From contig NZ_MDGT01000005.1 in NCBI RefSeq assembly GCF_001870515.1, forward strand, positions 62,001 to 126,000: a stretch of DNA of 64,000 bases, given 5' to 3'. The first letter of the stretch is position 1, and every line of letters begins with the position of its first letter. The position numbers and the translations under genes are program-made. The notes below the pieces were generated by a model. It was given only the letters and a program-made list of their open reading frames with translations, ran no database searches and had not been told where the DNA came from. This document shows positions 2,622 through 62,594 of the stretch, piece by piece. Source of the DNA: Idiomarina sp. MD25a (GTDB lineage Bacteria > Pseudomonadota > Gammaproteobacteria > Enterobacterales > Alteromonadaceae).

Positions 2622-3602
2622 CTAACCGACTTTAACGACAATACGCCCTCTAACTTTGCCTTCTATTAAGTGATTTGCGGTATCACAAACCTCAGATAAA
2701 GGTATTTCCGTAGCTACGTTTTCAAGCGTTTTGCTGTCTAAAATTTTAGACAGTCTACCCCATGCTTCTACTCGATCATCGAGGGGACGCATAACACTGT
2801 CAATTCCGGCTAAGGTTATACCTCTTAATATAAAGGGTGCGACTGTTCCCGGCAGGTCCATTCCTTGCGCTAAGCCACAAGCAGCCACTATGCCACCGTA
2901 TTTAGTGCTCGCGCATGCATTCACCAATGTATGACTCCCCACTGAGTCTATCACGCCGGCCCAACGTTCTTTGGCTAATGGACGTCCAGGCTCTGACAGT
3001 AAATGCCTATCGATAACATCGGCCACTCCAAGTGATTTCAGATAATCGGCTTCTTCAACTCTACCGGTGGCGGCCACGACGGTATAGCCTAGTTTAGCGA
3101 GTAGCGCGATAGCATAACTACCCACCCCTCCATTGGCACCTGTGACAAGGATTTCCCCAGAATCAGGAGTCACACCGTGTTTTTCGATAGCAATGATGCA
3201 TAACATGGCGGTATACCCTGCGGTACCAACAGCCATAGCCTGCTTCGCTGATAACGATTTGGGTAACGGAATTAACCAGTCACTGCTTAATTTTGCTTTC
3301 TCTGCCAATCCACCACAGTGCACTTCACCTACGCCAAAACCGTTAAGCAATACCTCTTCGCCAACATTAAACTTATCAGAAGTGCAGCTGACTACAGTTC
3401 CTACCAAATCAATCCCAGGGATCATGGGGAATTTTCTCACCACTGGTGATTTTCCGGTAATGGCAAGTGCATCTTTGTAATTAAGCGAACTGTAGGACAC
3501 GTTAACGAGCGTATCACCATCCATTAAAACACTTTCATCTAAGCCCTTGATAGTCGCCGTATACTTCTGCTCGTCCTTTTCAATTAATACCCCATTAAAC
3601 AT
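2622..3602 (-). CDS. acuI: Acrylyl-CoA reductase AcuI / YhdH-family quinone-oxidoreductase-like MDR
   Basis: 326-residue medium-chain dehydrogenase/reductase of the zinc-less YhdH/AcuI branch: GroES-like N-terminus (YSSLNYKDALAITG, PGIDLVGTV), then a Rossmann domain with VTGANGGVGSYAIALLAKLGY (NADPH binding, about residues 150-170). AcuI reduces toxic acryloyl-CoA to propionyl-CoA, a detoxification step in acrylate and DMSP metabolism. The ATG at 3602 is preferred to an upstream alternative because GGAGG lies just before it. Immediately upstream lies an AcuR-like repressor gene, and a TAGAC-N5-GTCTA palindrome sits between the two. No DMSP lyase gene is visible, so the acrylate is either imported or made elsewhere. 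Confidence 0.85.
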   Translation of the reverse strand: MFNGVLIEKDEQKYTATIKGLDESVLMDGDTLVNVSYSSLNYKDALAITGKSPVVRKFPMIPGIDLVGTVVSCTSDKFNVGEEVLLNGFGVGEVHCGGLAEKAKLSSDWLIPLPKSLSAKQAMAVGTAGYTAMLCIIAIEKHGVTPDSGEILVTGANGGVGSYAIALLAKLGYTVVAATGRVEEADYLKSLGVADVIDRHLLSEPGRPLAKERWAGVIDSVGSHTLVNACASTKYGGIVAACGLAQGMDLPGTVAPFILRGITLAGIDSVMRPLDDRVEAWGRLSKILDSKTLENVATEIPLSEVCDTANHLIEGKVRGRIVVKVG

Positions 3603-3615
3603 AACGCCTCCAATA

Positions 3616-3630
3616 TAGACCGACCGTCTA
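3616..3630. promoter_or_regulatory. Candidate AcuR operator upstream of acuI
   Basis: Palindrome TAGAC-CGACC-GTCTA, 13 bases before the acuI start. The same TAGAC-N5-GTCTA arms recur upstream of the repressor gene (4291-4305). Two copies placed at the two promoters of a TetR-target pair make repressor binding the natural reading. Confidence 0.75.
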
Positions 3631-3646
3631 CTAAATGACAAAAAAA

Positions 3647-4279
3647 TTACTTAGGTAAGCCCTGAGTAAAAAGTTCTAAATACTTATCTAGCGGCTGCGT
3701 ACTTTTCTCAAGCCGTGAACGGCTTACCGCGCCTTCCCATCCAATCCAGAAAAATTCAGCTAGAGCGTCACAATCAGCATCTTGTGATAACTCACCTGTT
3801 GCTTGCGCCTCACGAAGGCAACTTGCAATACGCTGCTGCCAGGTTGCGAAAATTTCTATTAGCACGGGTCGAAAGCTCTCCGGTATTGCATCGACTTCTT
3901 GCCCCAAGTTACCAACCAGGCAACCTCTTTTAAACTGATGCTTGGCAATACCTTGTTTAGCGTCTTCAACAAAGTTTCGAATTCGCTGTAACGGCGAAAA
4001 TGAAGTATCAAGTAAGCAACTATCTAATTTTTTCGCGAAATAGTTAGCGTAATTATTCAAGACTGCATGACCAAAAACTTCTTTGCTGGAGAAGTAAAAG
4101 TAAAACGATCCTTTGGGCACACCGACTTTTCTCAGGATTTTATCTAAGCCTGAGGCGGTAAAACCTATTTCGGTTAAATGCTCAAGACCACTTCTAATTA
4201 GAGCGGCTCTGGTATCTTGTTTTTTAACCGCTGCTTTTGGCGGTCTTCCTCTTCGAGGTTTAGCGATTAAATTTGTCAT
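3647..4279 (-). CDS. acuR: AcuR-like TetR-family transcriptional repressor
   Basis: 211 residues from the ATG at 4279. After a basic arm (KPRRGRPPK) comes a TetR helix-turn-helix (about residues 20-65: ALIRSGLEHLTEIGF, then VPKGSFYFYFSSKEVFG). The ligand domain contains RGCLVGNLGQE and FWIGWEGA, segments I recognise from AcuR of the DMSP/acrylate operon of Rhodobacter. The frame stays open further upstream but that part would run over the divergent promoter and operator, so 4279 is chosen. The gene is followed 44 bases later by acuI. Known AcuR is released from DNA by acrylate; the same inducer is inferred here. Confidence 0.85.
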   Translation of the reverse strand: MTNLIAKPRRGRPPKAAVKKQDTRAALIRSGLEHLTEIGFTASGLDKILRKVGVPKGSFYFYFSSKEVFGHAVLNNYANYFAKKLDSCLLDTSFSPLQRIRNFVEDAKQGIAKHQFKRGCLVGNLGQEVDAIPESFRPVLIEIFATWQQRIASCLREAQATGELSQDADCDALAEFFWIGWEGAVSRSRLEKSTQPLDKYLELFTQGLPK

Positions 4280-4290
4280 GTGAAGAACAC

Positions 4291-4305
4291 TAGACTGATC
4301 GTCTA
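4291..4305. promoter_or_regulatory. Candidate AcuR operator in the divergent promoter region
   Basis: TAGAC-TGATC-GTCTA, identical arms and spacing to the site before acuI. It lies 12 bases upstream of the repressor start and about 41 bases upstream of the divergent membrane-protein gene, so it could control both: autoregulation plus inclusion of the membrane protein in the regulon. Confidence 0.75.
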
Positions 4306-4346
4306 CAAAAAACAACTTAGACAAAAGTCGAATCCTATTGCCGCTG

Positions 4347-4865
4347 ATGCAAAACTTTATGGTGTTACTTGGAGTTTTGATACCAGGCGGCCCAATTGAA
4401 AACAGAGATTTTTCACATATACCTCCCCTGAAACTAGGGGCATTTAATGTGTTTCTGACCATTTTGGGCATTGCTAGCTTTGCGTTAGTCTATTTTTCAA
4501 TTGAAGGATCCACGTTTTCATTCATCGTAGCAGCGATTTGTGGCGTATCCTATTTCCTAGTGTATGCTCTGGATTTAGGAAAGATCTTTCCCGTATCTCC
4601 CACGAGAATGCCACGCGCATTATTCTGGATTGAAATTGTCGGACTCATCTTATCGATACCACTAACACTGCTGTCGCTTGTTTATGTATTTATATCGAAG
4701 GGTAGCGGCCACGCCACTGGCGTTCAATCGGACACAATGATTATGGCATTAATTGCCATCATGGCCTTAGGTATTGGGGTCGTCATATTTGCCACAAAAG
4801 CAGCAATGAGAAAGTCGCCTAGCAAGGCAAATTCAGACGATGCGAAAAAGCAAACGGATGATTAG
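4347..4865 (+). CDS. Four-helix membrane protein divergent from acuR
   Basis: 172 residues with four predicted transmembrane helices (about residues 28-48, 51-71, 90-113, 128-147) and a charged, Lys/Asp-rich C-terminal tail. The N-terminal GVLIPGGPIENRDFS recalls a family of uncharacterised membrane proteins. The start is uncertain: ATG codons at 4347 and 4359 and an upstream TTG all lack a good ribosome site. Sharing the acuR intergenic region suggests common control by the repressor, perhaps as an acrylate- or solvent-stress protein, but function is unknown. Confidence 0.65.
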   Translation: MQNFMVLLGVLIPGGPIENRDFSHIPPLKLGAFNVFLTILGIASFALVYFSIEGSTFSFIVAAICGVSYFLVYALDLGKIFPVSPTRMPRALFWIEIVGLILSIPLTLLSLVYVFISKGSGHATGVQSDTMIMALIAIMALGIGVVIFATKAAMRKSPSKANSDDAKKQTDD

Positions 4866-4987
4866 CAGCGAGCAGACACCAACACTCTCCGCTAGAGATA
4901 TAAAATTCCGAGATGAGCTTATAGATTACTTGAATAATCAAGCATGATTCAAAGCTACTTTTCAAAAGCTGCGGCTCTCGTATCGCA

Positions 4988-5772
<785 letters not shown>

Positions 5773-5866
5773 TTTGTTTCACTGCTTACAGTTTGTAACA
5801 AAGCAGATTCGCTTTTCGTCTCCACCGTGATTATTGTTTAATCAAAGTCAAAATGAGGGCGTTGAA

Positions 5867-6874
5867 ATGTACAGCGACAAAGATATTCGCGCGGCCGTCG
5901 AGGCAGGTGTCATGCCTAAACAAACGGCGAACGCGTTTCGTGATTTTATTCAACAACAGCGCGGTGGAGTCCTAAATCAGGACCAAGAGTATATTCCTCT
6001 AGTACACGGCTTTAACGACATTTTTGTCGTGATCGCCGCAGTGATTGCTTTGGCAGGTCTGTGGACGATTGGTAATACCATGTCGCCGCTGATCGGTGGC
6101 GGTTTAGTCGCGGTGGCAAGTTGGTTGTTGTCCGAGTACTTCACTCGCCGTCGACATATGGCGCTGCCATCGATCGTGCTATTGGTGACTGCATTGGGCG
6201 GTACCTTCGGTGGCGTGATTATGCAATTACTTGCCATGACGGTACGACCCGACATTGCTAGCGGTGTCGCATTTATTGCTGCTAGTGCCGTTGCAACAGC
6301 ACATTGGTTTCGGTTCCGTGTTCCTATCACGCTCGCGGCTGGGGTCGCTACGGTGATTGGTATCATTGTGTCGTTCTTAAGCACCACCTGGTTGCTAGAC
6401 AGCATCTTAATTGACGTAGTGATCATGACAGGGGGCTTAGTCACCTTTGGCATCGCCATGTATTGGGATGCTTCGGACGTCGATCGCACCAGTCGCCGTT
6501 CTGATGTCGCGTTTTGGCTTCATCTACTAGCGGCGCCGCTGATGATCCATCCATTGTTTAACGTCATTCTTGGCAGTGATTTTGAAATCGGTGTCACTCA
6601 AGCAGCCGCCACACTGGTGGTTTATGTTGTGTTGAGTATCGTATCTCTGATTATCGATCGTCGCGCCTTGATGGTATCTGCATTGGCTTACGTTATCTTT
6701 ATTTTCAGCCAAGTGCTGACAAGCGTTGGCTTGGTCGACTTAGGTAGCGCAGTGATGGGCTTAATCGTGGGGGCTGGCCTACTACTTGTATCGGTGTTCT
6801 GGCATCCGTTACGCAGTTCATTGGTATCTAAATTACCACCTGCGCTACTTAATAAATTACCTTCACTGCAATAA
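5867..6874 (+). CDS. Polytopic membrane protein, about ten helices, DUF2157/DUF4401-like
   Basis: 335 residues. A short soluble N-terminus (about 50 residues, helical, with QTANAFRDFIQQQRGG) is followed by about ten closely packed transmembrane helices to the C-terminus. The ATG at 5867 is chosen over an upstream alternative because GAGGG precedes it at proper distance. The layout, an N-terminal helix pair then a bundle of short hydrophobic helices, resembles uncharacterised DUF2157-type proteins; no catalytic motif is seen. It follows the truncated pump but appears to be an independent core gene. A weak GAGCG/CGCTC hairpin at 6881-6897 may end its transcript. Confidence 0.7.
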   Translation: MYSDKDIRAAVEAGVMPKQTANAFRDFIQQQRGGVLNQDQEYIPLVHGFNDIFVVIAAVIALAGLWTIGNTMSPLIGGGLVAVASWLLSEYFTRRRHMALPSIVLLVTALGGTFGGVIMQLLAMTVRPDIASGVAFIAASAVATAHWFRFRVPITLAAGVATVIGIIVSFLSTTWLLDSILIDVVIMTGGLVTFGIAMYWDASDVDRTSRRSDVAFWLHLLAAPLMIHPLFNVILGSDFEIGVTQAAATLVVYVVLSIVSLIIDRRALMVSALAYVIFIFSQVLTSVGLVDLGSAVMGLIVGAGLLLVSVFWHPLRSSLVSKLPPALLNKLPSLQ

Positions 6875-7012
6875 AGCATTGAGCGGCGCAAGTCGCTCTT
6901 TCTAACTTATTAGTTAAAAGTTGTATATATTTTGTAAAAATGAGCTTTGAAAAGCCGTCAAAGCGAGCCATAATTTAATAAATTAAACATTTAAATAACA
7001 TTTGGAGCCGCT

Positions 7013-7657
7013 ATGGCTGTGAAATTTGAAGACCGTCCTCTGGATAAAATCCGCGAAGAGGTGATAGACCAGCTGGTTATGAATTACAGTCATGGTGAAT
7101 TATCGCAAGAGGCTTTTGAGGCTCGGCTTGACCAAGCATTTGATGCGACTGCTCATCAGCAACTGGCCGACTTGGTTGAGGACTTACCCCTGCAAGTCGA
7201 TGCACAGTACGAACAAAGCAAAGCCGCGCGCTTTGAGGCACGCTCTACCAAAATATTTGCTGGTAGCGAGCATTCAGTTGTGGCAGTGCTTTCATCGCAG
7301 AGTATGAAAGGCGCTTGGCAAGTACCGGCTAAAATTAAAGCCTACAGCGTGTTGGGATCACTCAAGATCGACTTTACTGATGCACACTTCGAGAGCGATG
7401 AGATTCATGTTCAACTACTCGATCTGGTTGGCGACATTAAAATTTTTGTACCCGAGTTTGCCCGCGTGACCTGCAATGTTGCCAACATTATTAGCTCACT
7501 CGATAATCACCTCGAGGCGCCAATACAAGAGCCTAAAGTGCACATCCATATTTCCGGCTATTCCGTACTTTCTTCTATTGATATAAAAGTACGCCAAACG
7601 ATGCGCGAGCGTTTTATTGCGTTTGCTGATAAGTTAAAGCGTAACTGGACCACCTAA
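7013..7657 (+). CDS. DUF1707 (SHOCT-like) / LiaF-like C-terminal domain protein
   Basis: 214 residues. The N-terminal 55 residues (DRPLDKIREEVIDQLVMNYSHGELSQEAFEARLDQA) match the SHOCT-like DUF1707 helical hairpin. The C-terminal part (about 110-190; SVLGSLKIDF, VQLLDLVGDIKIFVP) resembles the beta-rich LiaF/YvqF domain of cell-envelope stress proteins. No signal peptide or membrane helix is visible, so it is probably cytosolic. TTGGAG lies 7 bases before the ATG. It probably senses or buffers envelope stress, which is inferred from the domain family. Confidence 0.7.
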   Translation: MAVKFEDRPLDKIREEVIDQLVMNYSHGELSQEAFEARLDQAFDATAHQQLADLVEDLPLQVDAQYEQSKAARFEARSTKIFAGSEHSVVAVLSSQSMKGAWQVPAKIKAYSVLGSLKIDFTDAHFESDEIHVQLLDLVGDIKIFVPEFARVTCNVANIISSLDNHLEAPIQEPKVHIHISGYSVLSSIDIKVRQTMRERFIAFADKLKRNWTT

Positions 7658-50736: not shown

Positions 50737-50766
50737 GGTTGATTGGAACAAAAATTTATTGTTATG

Positions 50767-50837
50767 AAATAAGTCGTTTAATCACACTCTTTGATTTTAA
50801 ACTCTTCAAGAGACTTCGATATTAAATAAGTCGTTTA
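50767..50837. repeat. Direct repeat of 14 bases at the left island edge
   Basis: AAATAAGTCGTTTA occurs at 50767-50780 and 50824-50837. Its 11-base core (TAAGTCGTTTA) recurs at 59596-59606. It could be a partial attachment site, a duplicated promoter element or chance; no integrase gene is visible. Confidence 0.5.
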
Positions 50838-50876: not shown

Positions 50877-51611
50877 TTATGATTTTTCTAATTGTTCCTT
50901 TATTTCGTCGACACTATAGGCAGGTTTTCTCCGATGTATCATCGAATGGCAATTTGGACATACTGGCTTGAGATCGCGAACAGGATCTATAACGTACTCT
51001 CTCCCAATGATCGATAACTCCAACTCATGATGAACGTGAATGAAGTCTCTTCCAATTTCCCCATAGATACTTAGAAAGTCGAATCCGCAAATAAAGCAGT
51101 AACAGCCATAGTGCTCAATACATTGTGCCCTAGCAACCGGGTTCCTCTCGTAAATGTTGACATGTACGCTTCGTACCTTACCCTCGCGAAGCTCTACAGT
51201 TTCATTAACTTCATCAGGAAAGATGTAATCATCATTTGTAGAGACTTGAGCTTGTCGAGACAACTCCTCATAAATTTCTTTGCCTTTGATTACGCTAGAA
51301 TTACCAACCGTCTCGTAATAGTCAATGTGCTGCCGAAGGGAGGACAACGCATTTAGTAGCTTGTCCCTCCCGTTTTCTTTAAATATCATTTCCAAATAGT
51401 AACGAGTCGCAGCCGCGTTCGTTGTTCGAGTAAATCGCTTACCCTCGATCAAGTTCCGATAACTATATATGTAATCGACAGCCGAATTTGGATTCATACC
51501 ATTACACGTTTCAAGGATTTCTATCCCTCGCGTCATTGAGATGTATCCTCTATGAACGCGCTTTGCGACATCGTATGCAGCCTCTATTGTTTTTCTGTCT
51601 ATTTTAGGCAT
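50877..51611 (-). CDS. HNH endonuclease (McrA-like, anti-phage type)
   Basis: 244 residues. The helical N-terminus (about 1-100) is uncharacterised; the C-terminus (about 170-235) is an HNH nuclease with the zinc Cys pairs CFICG and CPNC, and HVHHELE...DPVRDLKPVCPNCHSMIH carrying the catalytic His. It is likely a DNA-cleaving, modification-dependent restriction protein, inferred from the family. It lies 62 bases after the DUF4917 gene on the same strand and ends the four-gene run. No clear ribosome site before the ATG. Confidence 0.85.
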   Translation of the reverse strand: MPKIDRKTIEAAYDVAKRVHRGYISMTRGIEILETCNGMNPNSAVDYIYSYRNLIEGKRFTRTTNAAATRYYLEMIFKENGRDKLLNALSSLRQHIDYYETVGNSSVIKGKEIYEELSRQAQVSTNDDYIFPDEVNETVELREGKVRSVHVNIYERNPVARAQCIEHYGCYCFICGFDFLSIYGEIGRDFIHVHHELELSIIGREYVIDPVRDLKPVCPNCHSMIHRRKPAYSVDEIKEQLEKS

Positions 51612-51673
51612 ATAGATACACTCAACGATTGATGGGAGTAGATAAGGTCAATAATACCCATGTTGAGCACCTG

Positions 51674-52699
51674 CTATGGGTTGACCCAACAATTAGGACT
51701 TCTTGCATCAAAAAACAAAACCTCACATTGTTCGTTGAAATTGTCTCTAATAAGCTGAGTAACCCTATTACAATATGCTTGATCATTATCAACTACTGAG
51801 AATGCGATTCTATCAATGCCTGACTTTGCAACTCTGTCTAGGATGTGCTGGTCATGTTCTCCTACACCCCAACCATAGACGACTAAGCTATCCTGAACCG
51901 AAGTAAGAACCTCACGATAAACCGTATTCAAATAGTAACTACTCTGGATCGATTTCTGCTTTTGTTGCTCGGTTCCTTCGCTAACAAAAAGTGGGACGTA
52001 GCTGCCTCGTTGCCACTTTTCCAAAATGTTCTCCAGCAGCCTATTACTGCCCTGTGAACTTATCTTCCTCTCGTTTTCAATTTTATCTCGCGCCAAAATG
52101 AGATTTCCATGAGGATAAAAGACTAAAGAACAACTGTCGATGTCTCCATATACCTCACGAAACCTTGACCAATCATCGTCAAATTCAGACCTTACAAAGC
52201 AATCTTTGAAGATATGTCTATTATCCAAGTCGTTCCCGTGCATCATCGCCCAATACACGATTAAGTCATAATTGAGCGAAATTACGTTATCGAATCCTTT
52301 CATGTAGGCGGCAATCGAAGGTAATTTTTGAGCAACTTCATTATGCTCTGGATGAATATCTCTAACAGCAGCAATTAAACAATCCCGAACGTGCCTGTAT
52401 GCGGCTTTTGTCTTTTCATCCTCTATCTCGAGAGCCTTATTAACATTTGTTGCTTGCCATACAATCCTCAAAACTAATTCAAAATCTTCAGTATGGAAGT
52501 AATCAAACAAGCTTTGAACCTCTTCATTGAGAAGGCCGTCTTCAATTGCATGTTGCTTTAGAGATTCATAATGAAACCGTTCATCTACTGCGATACTGGC
52601 TCCATTCCCTAGCAGTAACGTGTCAGTAAACCTATCGGAAATCTCCGTCCAAGAATGAATTTCAAAAGGCAAACTCAGTCCCCTCTCCGCTGCCAACAT
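51674..52699 (-). CDS. DUF4917 protein, SIR2-like fold
   Basis: 341 residues. Matches DUF4917: LLLGNGASIAVDERF (about 27-41) occupies the place of the SIR2 nucleotide loop, with VISLNYDLIVYW (about 140-151), YPHGNL (about 198) and VVYGWGVGEHDQHI (about 277-290). SIR2-like proteins in defence clusters deplete NAD+ on infection; that activity is inferred. The start is ambiguous: ATG at 52699 has no ribosome site, whereas TTG at 52672 follows GAGAGGGG closely. Cotranscribed with the membrane gene upstream and HNH gene downstream. Confidence 0.8.
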   Translation of the reverse strand: MLAAERGLSLPFEIHSWTEISDRFTDTLLLGNGASIAVDERFHYESLKQHAIEDGLLNEEVQSLFDYFHTEDFELVLRIVWQATNVNKALEIEDEKTKAAYRHVRDCLIAAVRDIHPEHNEVAQKLPSIAAYMKGFDNVISLNYDLIVYWAMMHGNDLDNRHIFKDCFVRSEFDDDWSRFREVYGDIDSCSLVFYPHGNLILARDKIENERKISSQGSNRLLENILEKWQRGSYVPLFVSEGTEQQKQKSIQSSYYLNTVYREVLTSVQDSLVVYGWGVGEHDQHILDRVAKSGIDRIAFSVVDNDQAYCNRVTQLIRDNFNEQCEVLFFDARSPNCWVNP

Positions 52700-52728
52700 T
52701 CACTGAAAACACTCATTCCGAAAGCCTA

Positions 52729-53220
52729 CTACTTAACGTGGTTATCATAATTATTGTCATCATCTAGCCTAATCAAAGCACTTCTTAAACTTATTCTTGC
52801 AGCGTAGAAGCTGAAAGCGTTTATTGATAGAGCGCCAGCAAAACCAGCAAATATCCAAGCCCCAGCCAAAGTACTTAGTGCGTCCAGAAGCCAAACAATG
52901 ATGCATGGAATTGTGAAAAAGATACTGTTTGATATACCGACATCAAAGTGAATTTTAAGCTTCCAGTAATCGGGCCACTCATGCAGTATCTTCTCCTTTT
53001 TTTCACTTGGGAAAAGAACTCCCACTCCCTCCTTTAAAGTCCATACAGTTATTCCTATGGGAAAGAGCATCACCCATTGAATTGCCTCGTCATTCAGTGA
53101 AGACAAAGGAAAATACTGCGCGAAAAAGTCGTGTGAAACCATATAGACAGTCAAACATAAGACAAGGAATGCGAACTCGAAGCTAAAGAAAAAAACTTTT
53201 AAATAATATAAAATTTTCAT
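52729..53220 (-). CDS. Four-helix membrane protein, unknown
   Basis: 163 residues with four predicted helices (about 10-30, 45-62, 85-110, 115-140) and short cytosolic ends. Its ATG overlaps the previous stop as TGATG, so it is translated with the upstream cytosolic protein. DUF4917 follows after 29 bases. I do not recognise the family. Small membrane proteins coupled to cytosolic sensors often act as abortive effectors in defence modules; that is only a hypothesis. Confidence 0.75.
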   Translation of the reverse strand: MKILYYLKVFFFSFEFAFLVLCLTVYMVSHDFFAQYFPLSSLNDEAIQWVMLFPIGITVWTLKEGVGVLFPSEKKEKILHEWPDYWKLKIHFDVGISNSIFFTIPCIIVWLLDALSTLAGAWIFAGFAGALSINAFSFYAARISLRSALIRLDDDNNYDNHVK

Positions 53221-54098
53221 CAGTGCTTCATATCCCGCTCATTAGAGACCTTTTCAAAATGAATTTTAGCTTTTGCCGCAAGTTCTTCGGGAGTTGGCTC
53301 TTTGTCATGAAGGAAACTCTTCTGTGTATCACTAGTTTTGATAACGACTTCATCTCCATTTTCCATCCCAACGACTTTCCCTCTACCATAACCATCGGCA
53401 GCCATTAAAATAGCGGCATCCCCAATGGCAGGAGGTTCATCTGGTTCATAGTCCGGAGAGTCCATTATTCGATCCATAAGCTCTATGATTTTAGACTTCA
53501 AACCTTCTGCCTTAGAAGTTTGTTCCTTAACTGCCACTTCGGAAGCATTTCGGTGCTCAATATATTGATTGAGGCTGCCCCATAGCCTTCCAAAAAGGGG
53601 GTTGGGGGGATGCACTGTTGCCGAAAACTCGGTGAAATAGCTCAGTTTTTTGAGGCGGGACGTAAAAGCACGATAGTCGGACACAGGTTCAACATCACAA
53701 GCCACAAAAAAGCCATCAAATGTTGCTTCTATAATAGATTTAAACCGTCTCGGAAAGACATCTTCTTGAATGCCGTTCCAAACTTGTAAGAATGCTATAC
53801 CCGAGTACTCAGGCAGATATATAAATGAAGAGCTAGCTTCAAGAAGATTTGGTACATCGGCATCAACCTGCAAACGACTGGCTTCATCAATTACCGTAGC
53901 ATGACCCTCCTTTGCATACTTTGACAGCTTTCCAAAGACATAAGGAGTATCTTCACTTCTGTTATCGACTACATCTGTTATCGTCCAGTCAAACTTACCG
54001 ATTGAAACTGTCGGCGCATTGGCTATAGCGTCCATTATACGTTTTTGATCAAGATTTATCTTAACAACCCGGCCAAGATAGTATCTTCCTCTTCTCAT
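53220..54098 (-). CDS. Cytosolic protein of unknown family, first gene of the four-gene run
   Basis: 292 residues without signal or membrane helix. The N-terminal half is alpha/beta-like (YYLGRVVKINLD start; IYLPEYSGIAFLQVWNG near 95). A charged helical stretch (about 185-210) follows, then an acidic, Pro-rich segment (SPDYEPDEPPA) and a short beta unit (IGDAAILMAADGYGRGKVVG) resembling an SH3- or KOW-like fold. Not recognised. GGGAG precedes the ATG. The following gene overlaps it by 1-4 bases. Confidence 0.75.
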   Translation of the reverse strand: MRRGRYYLGRVVKINLDQKRIMDAIANAPTVSIGKFDWTITDVVDNRSEDTPYVFGKLSKYAKEGHATVIDEASRLQVDADVPNLLEASSSFIYLPEYSGIAFLQVWNGIQEDVFPRRFKSIIEATFDGFFVACDVEPVSDYRAFTSRLKKLSYFTEFSATVHPPNPLFGRLWGSLNQYIEHRNASEVAVKEQTSKAEGLKSKIIELMDRIMDSPDYEPDEPPAIGDAAILMAADGYGRGKVVGMENGDEVVIKTSDTQKSFLHDKEPTPEELAAKAKIHFEKVSNERDMKH

Positions 54099-54233
54099 TA
54101 GGTTCTCCCTGTACCCTCTGAAATTCTTACGCCTTAGTTGACGCGTTTGTAAGTTATTTTTCGGGGCAAATGATCCACATTACGCGATGAAAGGAACCAA
54201 GAGTTGTACCGCTGTACCTGCGATTATTAGGTT

Positions 54234-54598: not shown

Positions 54599-55144
54599 TC
54601 ACTTTAAAGTACTGTCCCACTTCTTTGCATAATATTCAAAGTTTTCGAACGTTCCTGCATGAGTATGAATCTGCATATGCTTAATTACGTCAGAACATCG
54701 ATACCATTGATTACTAAAAACTTTTAAGAAGAAGGCTTTACATACTGATTCACTTAGATCTTTCTGCTTTATCCCAATAGAAATAAACTCGAGAAAATTG
54801 AGAACATTTATAACACCATAACGAGCGCTTTCATTTTTTGAATCGATGAATTTTTCATAAGTTAATTTTTGACCAGACGGAAATACTTCTTGAAATGACT
54901 GCACCTGCTTTAAGTATGATTCGCTCAATCTCGACTGTGCAATAATTGAAACTGTAGACTGACGTTGCGCGATGTAAAGTGAAACCCACCAACCCAAAGT
55001 AATAGCCGACAAAGACGCGAAACAAGAAATCAGTATGAACAGACCATTACCAGCCGAATCAATTCCGATACAATAGATCCATCCGCCAATACAAAGGCTC
55101 AACGCACAGAACAGCCCTGACATAATTAATAGTAGTATTCTCAA
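54599..55144 (-). CDS. DUF4760-like membrane protein
   Basis: 181 residues. Two N-terminal helices (about 3-22 and 28-55) anchor a cytosolic helical domain. VLNFLEFISIGIKQKDLSES (about 113-132) is the DUF4760 hallmark. Function unknown; such proteins are frequent in genomic islands. It stands alone, with 97 bases to the next upstream gene. Confidence 0.75.
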   Translation of the reverse strand: MRILLLIMSGLFCALSLCIGGWIYCIGIDSAGNGLFILISCFASLSAITLGWWVSLYIAQRQSTVSIIAQSRLSESYLKQVQSFQEVFPSGQKLTYEKFIDSKNESARYGVINVLNFLEFISIGIKQKDLSESVCKAFFLKVFSNQWYRCSDVIKHMQIHTHAGTFENFEYYAKKWDSTLK

Positions 55145-55241
55145 CTATTCCTCCGAGCAACTTAACATCTAGCGTAAACGGTATGAATGACTCGCTTCCG
55201 ACGACCGCATCGAGCGAATTTAATGGCGTTATTACATGATT

Positions 55242-55634
55242 TCACGCTACAAGATCGCCATATCCCCAAATCAAAGTGCCCAAAAGAATGAAACACAAGG
55301 TTACGTATTCCAAGACTTTTCTGCGTTTAGGTATGCTCCAATCTTGAGGTGACCCACCAATATACCCCGCAGCAGACTGCCTGCAATCATTCATGCGTTG
55401 CTGAGCTGAATAATTTCTTGTCTCAACCCAGACAGATAAAAGCACTACGACTGCTCCCGACCGACCAAACCAGTGCGCCTCGCCAGTAGCATGGCTTAAA
55501 ATGTATGATGCGACAGCAAAACAGCACCCAGAGAACAAGATAAGGATTTCCGCAAAAATTTTTCCCGCCTTTCGCTCTTCTTCCTCTTTATTTGGCATTC
55601 TATTGCTGTTTGTCAATTCTACTGACTCCCTCAT
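55242..55634 (-). CDS. Small membrane protein, unknown
   Basis: 130 residues with three predicted helices (about 27-46, 52-70, 102-123) between polar ends; a basic and acidic N-terminus (NKEEEERKAGK). No family recognised. Same strand as the DUF4760 gene. Confidence 0.6.
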   Translation of the reverse strand: MRESVELTNSNRMPNKEEEERKAGKIFAEILILFSGCCFAVASYILSHATGEAHWFGRSGAVVVLLSVWVETRNYSAQQRMNDCRQSAAGYIGGSPQDWSIPKRRKVLEYVTLCFILLGTLIWGYGDLVA

Positions 55635-58356: not shown

Positions 58357-59496
58357 CTATTCATCTTCTAAATCGTTTATGTCAGGTAATTCCTTAATCA
58401 AGACTGTAGACTTACCGTGATTAATCTCTACAAACCCAAAAGATTCGAGACGTACAAGTTGTTCTCTTATTACCGTCCTGTTACAACCGAAAGCTTCCGA
58501 AAGCTCTCTCTCAGCGGGTAACTTAGAACCTACGGATAGGCCCAATATTCTTAAGTACACAACGAGGTCATGCAAAGAACGGTATTTTTTTAATGCAGAG
58601 AGGATACTCTTATCTAAACGAACTTGAGTTATTTCTTCTACTGTCTCTGGAGATATATCTCTGTCTAAAAACTCAGCAGCGTAATTGAGGAAAGTATCAG
58701 CGCGATACATTTGAAATTTTTGGCTAGTTTTCTCAATAAACTCCTTTGTAAGTTCTGGTCTTGGCCCTATAGTTTTGCCATTAGACTTTTTCCACCAATC
58801 TTCCTTAGTATCGTCAGTCACCAAAATCACACCTGCTTTCCTGCTTTGAGCCATTTCTATTGTTTGCTGCCAAACAATAAAGTCTCCAAACTTACGCCTT
58901 TGACTTTGCAAGTCATCCGACCCTTCTGATTTCTTTGCGTCTTTGAAGCCGGGAGGTATTCCTTGCTTATATCTTTCGCTTCCTTCTTTGCAAAGCTCTC
59001 CTAAGCGTTCGTCTGAGTATGGTGAGCCGACTTTTCCATCAAAGAGCTGGGCAAGTTTCTCTTTTATGGGATCTTCGTTAATTCTGTCAGAGTGAATTTT
59101 TTTGCTATCTTTTAACTCCCGTTCGATTTCTATAAATAATTCTTTAAGCTGTTTAGCAAGTTCTTGGCTTACGAACGGATGTTGACGATTACTTTCAAAT
59201 TTTTGATGTAGCGCATCCATCTCATTGATTGTTTTGTCATAAGAGGATTCTTGGTCGTTAATCACGTTCAATCGGTTTTCAAAATACTCGTCGGCTGCTT
59301 GGTGAGGAATCCAAATTCTATCCTGAATCTCGCCCAGTAAACCGAAGAAGTCTTTACGAGTGCTCTCAGAATAACGATACATATTTAACAAAATATTCGC
59401 ATCAAAAACAAAAACCGCTTTACCCCATATTTCCCTTAAATCGTCGTCAGACTCTTTAAAGTAGCCGGGAAACAACGCCTTCATATTGTTGCTCAT
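58357..59496 (-). CDS. PIN_8-like nuclease fused to a GntR/FadR-type winged helix
   Basis: 379 residues. The N-terminal region (about 28-265) is a PIN-like domain: VFDANILLNMYRYSE carries the first acidic residue, a middle coiled insertion follows, and VILVTDDTKEDWW bears the later Asp pair, together able to bind metal for RNA cleavage. The C-terminus (about 305-370) is a GntR-type winged helix with LPAERELSEAFGCNRTVIREQLVRLE, specific for DNA binding. The fusion of a toxin-type nuclease to a transcription factor is unusual. GAGG before the ATG. A palindrome 76-98 bases upstream may be its operator. Confidence 0.8.
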   Translation of the reverse strand: MSNNMKALFPGYFKESDDDLREIWGKAVFVFDANILLNMYRYSESTRKDFFGLLGEIQDRIWIPHQAADEYFENRLNVINDQESSYDKTINEMDALHQKFESNRQHPFVSQELAKQLKELFIEIERELKDSKKIHSDRINEDPIKEKLAQLFDGKVGSPYSDERLGELCKEGSERYKQGIPPGFKDAKKSEGSDDLQSQRRKFGDFIVWQQTIEMAQSRKAGVILVTDDTKEDWWKKSNGKTIGPRPELTKEFIEKTSQKFQMYRADTFLNYAAEFLDRDISPETVEEITQVRLDKSILSALKKYRSLHDLVVYLRILGLSVGSKLPAERELSEAFGCNRTVIREQLVRLESFGFVEINHGKSTVLIKELPDINDLEDE

Positions 59497-59834: not shown

Positions 59835-61274
59835 ATGGGAAAAATTAAAAATCCAGCCACGATTTCAAGTGAATTTGGTATAGATGTTGCGGTTTTGGAC
59901 AAGCTTGGGGTTGTAAATGTACTACTGAATACAGATACCTTGGTCTTTATAGATCCAATGTTATTGGAAGGAAGTGCTCACAAGGAGATTAGTGATGGGG
60001 CTTACCAATCATATAGAGATCGCTTTGAAAAAATCATCAAACTTTTGTCCTTATCTAAAGCTGTAAATGATGTTCCATGGCGTAATGCAAAAAGACTTTT
60101 CCGTTTCTCAGAAATTAGCTGGACTTGTTTGGGCTACGGTACAACTGTTAAAGGATCTGGATTTGGAAAGGATTTAATCTCTAGCACACTCGATACTGCT
60201 TCTCAGATTGTCTCTCTTGGCGTGGATGATATAGATCTTTTTATGGCTTTAGCTTTATTCGAGGAGGGTATTGGGCCTGATCGGATCAGCGATATGACCA
60301 CAAACATTATTTTGCCGGATTTGATTTCTTTTTCTGAGCGAGTCAATCAAACACTTAAAGTACCTACTAAACAGTTTAAGATCGGAGCCAATAACTATAA
60401 TTTGGTAGTTAATCCGTACTCAGATCAACCATTAATCTTTGTGCCAAAAGATATAGTGCGTGATTTACCGATTGCTTCCGATTGGAGTGATATATCGAGA
60501 GTTGTCAGGGAAAATGAAGACCTTAGAGAGCGGGTCAATGGTCACGTTGGTGAAATCTGGGCAACAATGACTAAAAAGGATAAGCAGAGACTCAAAAAAT
60601 CTGCTCTCAGGAGCAAAGAAGCTTTCCAACAGGTTATGAATATGATTCGTGAGGTGGAACCCAAGTCATATGACTTCAAAAGTGACAGAAACGGTGAGTC
60701 ATTTTGGACTGAGTTACTGAAACAAATTCCCAAGGACTATCCCTACGACCTTTCTAATTATTCTGGTAGAAAACTAAGCGCAGATGAAGTTGTCGAGTTA
60801 GTTAATAAAATACTAAGCCAGTTCCAAGATTTGATTGAGAACAAGGGCTTATGGAAAGAGCTTTGGGATGAAAATGGAAAACCCAGAAAGGAGAAAGCGT
60901 CACAACGACTTTTATTTGCAGTTGCTTATAGTTATTGCAAGGCTAACAATATTGATTTAACACCTGAAGCAGATTCCGGCAATGGGCCTGTAGACTTCAA
61001 GATCTCTCAGGGCTTTGACTCAAAATTGGTGGTCGAAGTTAAATTATCTAATAATAGCAGTCTGGTCCATGGCTATGAAAAGCAATTAGAAACTTATAAG
61101 AAAGCTGACGACACAGATTTAGGTGTATTTCTAATTATCGACATTGGCGGTATTGGGAAAAAATACAGTCGAGTACAGAAGATAAGGAATGACTTCATAA
61201 AGGAACATGGTAAAGCATCCGATATTTGGTACGTCGATGGAAATCAAAAACCGTCTGCCAGCAAAAGAAACTAA
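59835..61274 (+). CDS. PD-(D/E)xK-type nuclease with uncharacterised N-terminal domains
   Basis: 479 residues. The C-terminal part (about 345-450) shows a restriction-like nuclease core: GNGPVDFKIS (catalytic Asp), VVEVKLS (E-x-K) and the following helix with QLETYKK. The N-terminal 340 residues do not match a family I know; they include FRFSEISWTCLGYGTTVKGSG and a helical middle. It starts a plus-strand run with Shedu 87 bases downstream. Most likely a DNA-cleaving defence protein; the partner and trigger are unknown. Confidence 0.75.
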   Translation: MGKIKNPATISSEFGIDVAVLDKLGVVNVLLNTDTLVFIDPMLLEGSAHKEISDGAYQSYRDRFEKIIKLLSLSKAVNDVPWRNAKRLFRFSEISWTCLGYGTTVKGSGFGKDLISSTLDTASQIVSLGVDDIDLFMALALFEEGIGPDRISDMTTNIILPDLISFSERVNQTLKVPTKQFKIGANNYNLVVNPYSDQPLIFVPKDIVRDLPIASDWSDISRVVRENEDLRERVNGHVGEIWATMTKKDKQRLKKSALRSKEAFQQVMNMIREVEPKSYDFKSDRNGESFWTELLKQIPKDYPYDLSNYSGRKLSADEVVELVNKILSQFQDLIENKGLWKELWDENGKPRKEKASQRLLFAVAYSYCKANNIDLTPEADSGNGPVDFKISQGFDSKLVVEVKLSNNSSLVHGYEKQLETYKKADDTDLGVFLIIDIGGIGKKYSRVQKIRNDFIKEHGKASDIWYVDGNQKPSASKRN

Positions 61275-61361: not shown

Positions 61362-62594
61362 ATGGAACACGTTGAACCAAATTCTGAAGCCATTCATCGA
61401 GAAACAGACAAGAAGATTGAATGGCAGTATTTTGATGAAAACAGTAACCCTGTACATCTAAGCAAAGTTGTCCACAAAGACAAACCTCTGATCTATATCT
61501 ATCCATTTGGTTATAGTCGTGAGAGAGGTGTAACTAAGAAAAAGGTACATACAGTAGAGCTTAGGGGGTGGGAAGAAATAAAGAATATTCCTACATCTCT
61601 CAGATCCGGTTCCACCGTGAAGCTTACAGTAGGGAAACTGAAGCTGCTCATGAATTTCATATACCAGCCCTTTCCGGAAGTTGAGAAGGTAATAGTGGAT
61701 AAAAACGGCAGTAGTCGTTTCTCAGCAAAGACTATCACCTTCAACTTCCAAGACCTTGAGAGAGTATTGAAAGCTATCTCGAAAGAGACTAGGACCTATG
61801 AGACTAGGAAGAAAACCGCTATAGCAAATGAGTTGGCAAAGGTTACACAAAAAGTATCTCCCCGAGCAACGAAGCTATCGAAAGGCGCACTTTCACATCA
61901 TTTAAGCTTCTACTCCGATGACGTTAGCCTCTCTGAAGCAGATGTGGACGCAGTTTTATCGCTCATATCTCTTACTCCATCTCTAAATGTTTCGGTCACA
62001 GAGAATTTCATCCAAACAAAAGATAAAATAAATGTAGCTTATTTGGATGATGTTATTAAAAAATTTAAAGAGCTGATGAAAGTCAAAAATGACAACGAAA
62101 AGAACTGGCAGTCATTCTTTGAAAGTCATGGTTGGATATTGGCAAACATATTCCCTTTTCAAGTTGTTTTGAAAGGGCGTGAGGCATACGTCGGTGGGAA
62201 GACGATAGAGAATAAAGAAGGCAGAGTCGTTGATTTTCTATATCAAAATGGCTTTAAAGACAATTATGCATTATTGGAAATAAAAACGCATAACAAAACT
62301 CTAATTCGGAAAAAGCCATATCGTGCTCCGGATACGTTTTCGGCTCACGAAGACCTATCAGGTGCAATAAGTCAGTGTCTTGACCAAAAGAGCACGTTTT
62401 TGACCGATATGGGGCAAAAGTATAAGGCGCTTGATCCGAAAGTCATACTAGTTGTGGGTCAGAAATCCAGCCTAGACGAAAACCAAGCCAGTTGTTTTGA
62501 ACTTCTCCGATCTAATCAAAAAAACGTAGATATCGTAACGTTCGATGAATTACTCGAGAAGATTAAAGGCCTAAAAGATGTGTTGCAGACCTAA
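61362..62594 (+). CDS. sduA: Shedu anti-phage nuclease (SduA, DUF4263)
   Basis: 410 residues. C-terminal DUF4263 (about 245-400): NWQSFFESHGWIL, VVDFLYQNG (Asp), YALLEIKTHN (E-x-K) and a following Gln/Ser helix form the PD-(D/E)xK nuclease of Shedu. Residues 1-240 are a divergent N-terminal domain, probably the sensor, which varies between Shedu types. Shedu is a known single-gene defence system that nicks DNA. The ATG at 61362 lacks a clear ribosome site. 76 bases to the HNH-type gene. Confidence 0.88.
   Translation: MEHVEPNSEAIHRETDKKIEWQYFDENSNPVHLSKVVHKDKPLIYIYPFGYSRERGVTKKKVHTVELRGWEEIKNIPTSLRSGSTVKLTVGKLKLLMNFIYQPFPEVEKVIVDKNGSSRFSAKTITFNFQDLERVLKAISKETRTYETRKKTAIANELAKVTQKVSPRATKLSKGALSHHLSFYSDDVSLSEADVDAVLSLISLTPSLNVSVTENFIQTKDKINVAYLDDVIKKFKELMKVKNDNEKNWQSFFESHGWILANIFPFQVVLKGREAYVGGKTIENKEGRVVDFLYQNGFKDNYALLEIKTHNKTLIRKKPYRAPDTFSAHEDLSGAISQCLDQKSTFLTDMGQKYKALDPKVILVVGQKSSLDENQASCFELLRSNQKNVDIVTFDELLEKIKGLKDVLQT

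Follow-up and report, generated by a model that had tools for sequence, protein, structure and literature searches.

Two adjacent genes of Idiomarina sp. MD25a, called genes 1 and 2 here, probably form a self-contained abortive-infection pair resembling RexAB of phage lambda, with an independent DUF4917 gene and an independent HNH gene beside it; we give this reading a probability of about 0.55. They lie in a stretch of 64,000 nucleotides (hereafter the window), which is part of the 320-kb contig C5 of a 2.68-Mb genome. An earlier note, made from the letters of this DNA and a list of its open reading frames (ORFs), had proposed these four minus-strand genes as one defence operon combining an unknown sensor, a membrane protein, a putative NAD-depleting enzyme and a nuclease. 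Our ORF check confirmed the four ORFs and their positions:

53220..54098, minus strand: gene 1, RexA-like candidate sensor, 292 amino acids (aa); ORF, conserved in 17 complete loci, AlphaFold2 (AF2) model
52729..53220, minus strand: gene 2, candidate membrane effector resembling RexB, 163 aa with four hydrophobic segments; ORF, hydropathy, charge pattern
51674..52699, minus strand: gene 3, DUF4917 protein, 341 aa, PADLOC candidate PDC-S21 with SIR2/AbiH-like motifs; hidden Markov model (HMM) matches, motifs
50877..51611, minus strand: gene 4, HNH protein, 244 aa, McrA-like C-terminal domain; Pfam, PADLOC mREase_IV, 6ghc

The spacing was also as described, since the stop codon of gene 1 overlaps the ATG of gene 2, and genes 3 and 4 follow at distances of 29 and 62 bases, respectively. 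Genes 1, 2 and 3 are real because each has full-length homologues elsewhere: those of genes 1 and 2 occur in other genera, whereas plasmids and further family genomes carry those of gene 3. The GC content of the four genes is 0.38-0.43, against 0.48-0.52 in three chromosomal genes on their left. A promoter and terminator scan returned no more signals than shuffled sequences, and E. coli genomes searched at the DNA level gave no match.

The pairing of genes 1 and 2 carries the argument. With gene 1 as the query, a scan of 84,980 species genomes yielded 15 loci. The gene was found in 2 of 369 genomes of the class (adding locus G263), in 4 of 295 genomes of the family (adding locus G950) and in 1 of 398 genomes of the phylum, which is the window's own genome; some of these matches repeat known loci (G806 is L004 and G927 is L010) and G1140 resembles L016. 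Among plasmids, gene 1 had a single match, a cyanobacterial record at 22% identity. Gene 1 is complete in seventeen loci (the window, L002/L040, L003-L015, L039 and L021); L016 and L017, which end inside the gene, stand outside this count, and L014 and L015, both within it, are identical in DNA over 3.8 kb. Directly downstream of gene 1, each of the 17 has an ORF for a small membrane protein. It was recognised as gene 2 by tblastn in 15 loci, and in L039 and L021 the second ORF (156 and 182 aa, respectively) was assigned by position and hydropathy. The closest named relatives at the locus are Pseudidiomarina halophila (L003) and Idiomarina fontislapidosi (L004), with gene 1 97% identical in both. 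Across genera gene 1 shows 73-89% amino-acid identity but only about 68-80% DNA identity, and this conservation of the protein against the divergence of the DNA suggests selection. Genes 1 and 2 are a conserved unit on their own.

The pair resembles lambda RexA/RexB in gene order, with the sensor gene first in both, in size (292 + 163 aa versus 279 + 144 aa), in the suggested RdgC-type fold of the first protein and in having a four-helix second protein. The hydrophobic segments of gene 2 lie at residues 9-27, 52-70, 100-118 and 123-141, compared with 8-26, 48-66, 84-102 and 116-134 in lambda RexB. The lysine and arginine residues are confined to the N-terminus (2), the second transmembrane segment (TM2; 1), the TM2-TM3 loop (5) and the C-terminal tail (4), with none in loops 1 and 3, a charge pattern that predicts both ends and the central loop to be inside. 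The TM2-TM3 loop is the best conserved part of the protein (13 of 29 columns at or above 0.9), followed by TM2 (5 of 19); a W-P-D-x-W stretch is among the conserved residues of the loop. The window thus has, next to gene 1, a predicted four-TM protein with cytoplasmic ends and a conserved central loop, as in RexAB-type pairs. Sbash gp31 has the same plan of a conserved TM2-TM3 loop, according to its published description; invariant residues are located there, and replacement R70A or D73A in this loop abolishes defence (PMC6426596). In addition, RexABpp of P. putida (PP_5643/PP_5644) was recognised by its fold and four TM helices (PMC12894663). As far as these two reports describe them, RexABpp and Sbash gp30/gp31 were placed in the Rex type because a fold or domain matched and the partner has four TM helices, not because of overall sequence identity; both are phage or prophage genes, and we liken the present pair to them by the published descriptions alone.

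Gene 1 has no match to a Pfam, PADLOC (E <= 1), NCBIfam or PHROG family. An AF2 model built from 16 sequences had a mean predicted local distance difference test score (pLDDT) of 68.3 and a predicted template modelling score (pTM) of 0.52. When this model was compared with the PDB, ranks 1-3 were RdgC (2owl_A, 2owl_B and 2owy_A, with probabilities 0.90, 0.75 and 0.75), and five inner-kinetochore chains were found at ranks 8, 11, 15, 16 and 23 (8ow1_N, 8ow1_NN, 6qld_N, 4kr1 and 7pkn_N). Among them 4kr1 is Iml3, and the match at rank 23 is chain N of the constitutive centromere-associated network (CCAN), which we take to be Chl4/CENP-N. RexA is described as sharing its fold with RdgC, IML3 and CHL4 (PMC11077077). 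Rex was looked for after the RdgC match of gene 1 had been obtained, not before. A RexA/RdgC-type fold of gene 1 is therefore supported, but not proved, by the model. With this result, what the earlier note called an unknown sensor with a membrane protein becomes a candidate RexAB-like pair.

Several results weigh against this assignment. Gene 1 matches neither PF15969 nor the PADLOC RexA model (E limit 1), and gene 2 matches neither PF15968 nor PADLOC RexB, when lambda RexA and RexB match both of their respective models. The TM-scores of the RdgC match are only about 0.3, no PDB match of the gene 1 model reaches E <= 1e-3, and RexA itself is absent among its best 50 PDB matches. A second AF2 model, of the Ferrimonas orthologue, was poor (pLDDT 47.7); RdgC was not recovered with it and 7pkn_N alone recurred, at rank 10. 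By hhalign, gene 1 against RexA and gene 2 against RexB gave probabilities of 0.4-0.5%; this test has little power, since the control comparison of RexA with RdgC fails as well (0.07%). Gene 1 is acidic, with an isoelectric point (pI) of 5.3 versus 8.6 for lambda RexA, which speaks mildly against a non-specific DNA-binding dimer. The threshold for four hydrophobic segments was passed by three of eight gene 2 partners and the other five show three, the second segment being under the threshold. Finally, the described Rex systems in the reports consulted sit in phages and prophages, lambda RexA/RexB in a prophage beside the CI repressor, whereas the pair studied here is found in integron-like cassettes and a Tn7-like transposon.

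We consider a competing explanation unlikely: genes 1 and 2 would be another membrane-effector system, whether similar to Kiwa, built from a membrane toxin and a regulator, or of an undescribed kind, and the RdgC match an accident of modelling. The silence of the RexA and RexB HMMs and the loss of the fold match in the Ferrimonas model are what this explanation predicts. It also fits the strongest structural matches of gene 1, which are six phage proteins of like predicted fold in BFVD (E <= 1e-3, best 1.1e-11, TM-score up to 0.53), none with an informative name. However, RdgC, Iml3 and CENP-N chains are independent members of one fold family and recurred in the search with the first model, and the topology and conserved loop of gene 2 fit Rex-like partners. 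PADLOC gave no family for gene 1 or for gene 2 at E <= 1, Kiwa models included, and we rejected a Kiwa identity for the pair on that ground.

Other comparisons of gene 1 added little. The hhalign comparison with RexA aligned just one stretch colinearly, of PNPxF type, at residues 165-169 of gene 1 and about 208-213 of RexA (0.4%), which we regard as a curiosity; gene 1 against Butters gp30 gave 0.5%. A phage origin of gene 1 was rejected, as it had no match among annotated phages (E 1e-5) and none in four viral-contig scans, even though BFVD contains the six phage proteins of like predicted fold named above. The gene 1 relative in L039 had no match to annotated phages at E 10 and matches phrog_10040 at E 0.006; a search of 114 genomes along this trail returned none. 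DUF4747 is named for both RexA and Sbash gp30 in one report (PMC6426596); our DUF4747 search found it in 0 of 185 genomes and is uninformative, because the controls scored 0 of 14.

We then turn to the two genes behind the pair. Among the 17 complete loci, DUF4917 and HNH genes follow gene 1 and its partner only in the window, L003 and L004, in copies about 90-98% identical within the Idiomarina group (the contig of L004 stops within the HNH gene). Of the 295 family genomes, 4 have gene 1 and 12 have DUF4917; the two coincide in just two genomes, the window's own and G806 (the genome of L004). Eight other DUF4917 loci of the family, of ten, were compared: all eight are without gene 1, the membrane gene or this HNH gene, and in four (L042-L045) the DUF4917 gene belongs to a type I restriction-modification operon, with modification (M), specificity (S) and restriction (R) genes confirmed in L042 and L043, M and R in L044, and M and S in L045. 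In L042 and L043 the DUF4917 gene lies directly between the S and R genes.

That all four genes act as one defence system, gene 1 sensing and the membrane protein, the DUF4917 NADase and the HNH nuclease serving as linked effectors, is improbable in our view. The shared strand, the overlap and the short gaps would suit it, and the set has been kept in three Idiomarina-group copies, with two insertion sites shown; against it stand the 14 of 17 pair copies that lack DUF4917 and HNH, and the eight DUF4917 loci that do without the pair. The co-occurrence search that the earlier note had proposed as its own check therefore speaks against the four genes as one general system, which we rejected on these counts. 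In favour of the earlier note, the four genes occupy different insertion sites in the window and in L003, and have therefore moved as a block. On these comparisons the grouping is a local stack. The defence context, the small membrane protein, the DUF4917 protein with SIR2-type motifs and the HNH nuclease domain all stood; their union in one system did not.

Gene 3 is a full member of DUF4917 (PF16263; 398.7 bits against a cut-off of 28, E 2.6e-119), a Pfam family linked with SIR2_2 and AbiH, and of PADLOC PDC-S21 (E 7e-125). The motifs GNGxS, NYD and HG are invariant in 10 of 10 DUF4917 sequences, of which four show a weak AbiH match and two a SIR2_2 match. A comparison with the SIR2-like domain protein 8j4u was colinear and weak (E 0.047), and a single-sequence search with the DUF4917 protein found no SIR2-like relative. 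The motifs and weak matches fit a SIR2-type NADase but are not proof of one; the NAD-depleting role proposed earlier gains the SIR2-type motifs, in a protein that was already a PADLOC candidate. No DUF4917 was found in viral contigs. Gene 3 sits behind the RexAB-like pair, unlike the half of its compared relatives placed among type I genes.

The HNH domain of gene 4 is McrA-like by its matches. Its Pfam HNH score, 20.1 bits, is just below the cut-off of 21.4; residues 132-234 match 5-methylcytosine-specific restriction enzyme A (6ghc) with E 1.4e-5, and the protein matches PADLOC mREase_IV with E 1.4e-6. In contrast to this domain, the first 115 or so residues are without any solved relative. 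By eye, look-alike HNH proteins adjoin the pair at L013 (7378-7950) and DUF4917 at L047 (8357-8971).

The pair is mobile. In loci L005-L012 the DNA similarity between loci is limited to about -35 to +1400 around it. The unit starts with GTTAGAA in seven loci (L006-L012) and with GTCAGAA in L005, and the complement TTCTAAC is found just behind gene 2 in five (L006, L008, L009, L011 and L012). A 60-base attC-like site follows the pair in L006, L008, L009 and L010. With a covariance model, R1, built from five attC-like sites, we detected two further ones in L009, right behind two other ORFs (E 1.6e-4 and 0.0083), so that L009 looks like a cassette array. This array (2856-7413) includes an FRG-domain PDC-S15 protein among its ORFs. 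The marine-host loci thus carry the marks of an integron cassette, namely a 5' GTTRRRY, a complementary R'' core and an attC after the gene, and the pair resembles such a cassette, with two genes, in several marine hosts. Two observations argue against this: the folding z-scores of the sites are -0.22, -1.66, -1.89 and 0.17, two of the four being no better than shuffles, and the minimum-energy fold differs from the attC hairpin, of whose 19 pairs 18, 17 and 16 form. In the window, model R1 gave no attC match at E <= 10 and the cassette boundaries are absent; alignment alone suggests one remnant:

54120..54130, minus strand: decayed 5' cassette boundary GTAAGAATTTC, which reads GTTAGAATTT in the cassette copies

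In the window the pair is carried instead by a low-GC insertion of about 14.5 kb (L019), from about 50760 to about 65259, running past the window end. Its left end holds the following features:

50751..50759, no strand assigned: left copy of the 9-bp direct repeat AAAATTTAT; the right copy, at 65260-65268, is outside the window
50768..50780, plus strand: transposon-end motif AATAAGTCGTTTA, outer copy of the left end, exact
50825..50837, plus strand: transposon-end motif AATAAGTCGTTTA, inner copy of the left end, exact

Three inverted copies of AATAAGTCGTTTA at 65197, 65215 and 65237 (span 65197-65249) form the right end, outside the window. These five exact copies are the only ones with at most one mismatch in 104 kb; with two mismatches allowed, the search gave 4 against 2.0 expected, no better than chance. 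The flanks are joined without the insertion in G1258 (97% identity) and G1260 (95-96%), and AAAATTTAT, present on both sides in the window, is single at the empty site of G1258 (L062). Six bases separate the end of the right direct repeat from the stop codon of the neighbouring gene, which by eye we take to be gcvP, and a gcvP-side attachment site is possible. In L003 the same end motif lies behind the same HNH gene in different flanking DNA. No transposition gene was recognised in the window's copy of the insertion; in the related L037, from the L004 genome, a TniB/TnsC-type ATPase and two TniQ/TnsD-type proteins adjoin the same cargo. The arrays of short inverted end motifs and these transposition genes resemble Tn7-like elements with defence cargo. 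Tn7 makes a direct repeat of 5 bp, unlike the 9 bp found here. Tn7-like elements carrying defence genes are already on record (PMC8649781).

That the genes are mere passengers of integrons and transposon with no defence role of their own is very improbable: the interruption of gene 2 in two copies (L010 and L011) is what a gene not always kept would show, but gene 1 is conserved across genera in a way that suggests selection and defence-type genes adjoin the pair.

Under the RexAB-like reading, and by analogy with the described Rex systems, gene 1 would be a cytosolic sensor of the DNA-clamp type with the RexA/RdgC fold. During phage replication, it would recognise either a phage protein or phage DNA-protein complexes and then dock on gene 2 at its conserved TM2-TM3 loop, on the cytoplasmic side. 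Gene 2, with four helices in the inner membrane, would damage or open that membrane; with the membrane impaired, growth would stop and the infection would be aborted. For RexABpp, the report describes measured membrane leakage and no depolarisation (PMC12894663). The pair may spread among marine Gammaproteobacteria as a two-gene integron cassette, and a Tn7-like transposon of the Idiomarina group would have taken it up and stacked it before the DUF4917 and HNH genes. These would act alone as further layers, by NAD depletion and by cleavage of modified DNA, respectively.

In the literature searched, mostly at the level of titles and with subscription journals and preprints barely covered, we found no RexAB-like system in an integron or a Tn7-like element. 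If the fold holds, the pair is a previously undescribed setting for the known RexAB kind, of which five systems are described so far according to one report (PMC12894663). A broader proposal is tentative and more doubtful than the reading of the pair itself: a sequence-divergent RexAB branch outside phages would be a bacterial defence module that travels both as an integron cassette of two genes and inside Tn7-like elements, with a range extending from marine Gammaproteobacteria to a cyanobacterial plasmid with dnd genes. RexAB would then be more than a by-product of phage lysogeny, and its lambda version a phage-borne branch of this wider sensor-plus-membrane-effector kind. The trigger of lambda RexA, and exclusion as its true function, have been debated since Benzer, as recounted in two reports (PMC11077077, PMC12894663). 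If true, the persistence and dispersal of a Rex-like pair outside phages would suggest that defence is the function under selection, and the many natural variants of the pair would serve for finding the Rex trigger.

Ten neighbours of the pair were picked and scanned; they include a DRT4 reverse transcriptase (L014), an OLD/AriA-like ATPase (L005) and the PDC-S15 protein of L009. The reverse transcriptase gene (L014, 4222-5916) lies about 60 bases upstream of the pair, and likewise in L015. On a Picosynechococcus plasmid, a very distant relative of the pair (L021, 4992-6391) adjoins dndD/dndE and an HNH gene.

Other cargo of the insertion in the window includes a PemK-like domain. Directly upstream of the pair (54599-55634) are a DUF4760 protein and a small, weakly SLATT-like membrane protein, also present in L004. 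A PIN_8 domain is joined to a GntR-type DNA-binding domain at 58357-59496. A 479-aa protein (59835-61274) resembles PADLOC PDC-M36A and the C-terminal part of the antiphage protein EruA, and is matched over its full length by phrog_30194. The same cargo contains a Shedu SduA_C protein (61362-62594, E 2.2e-23).

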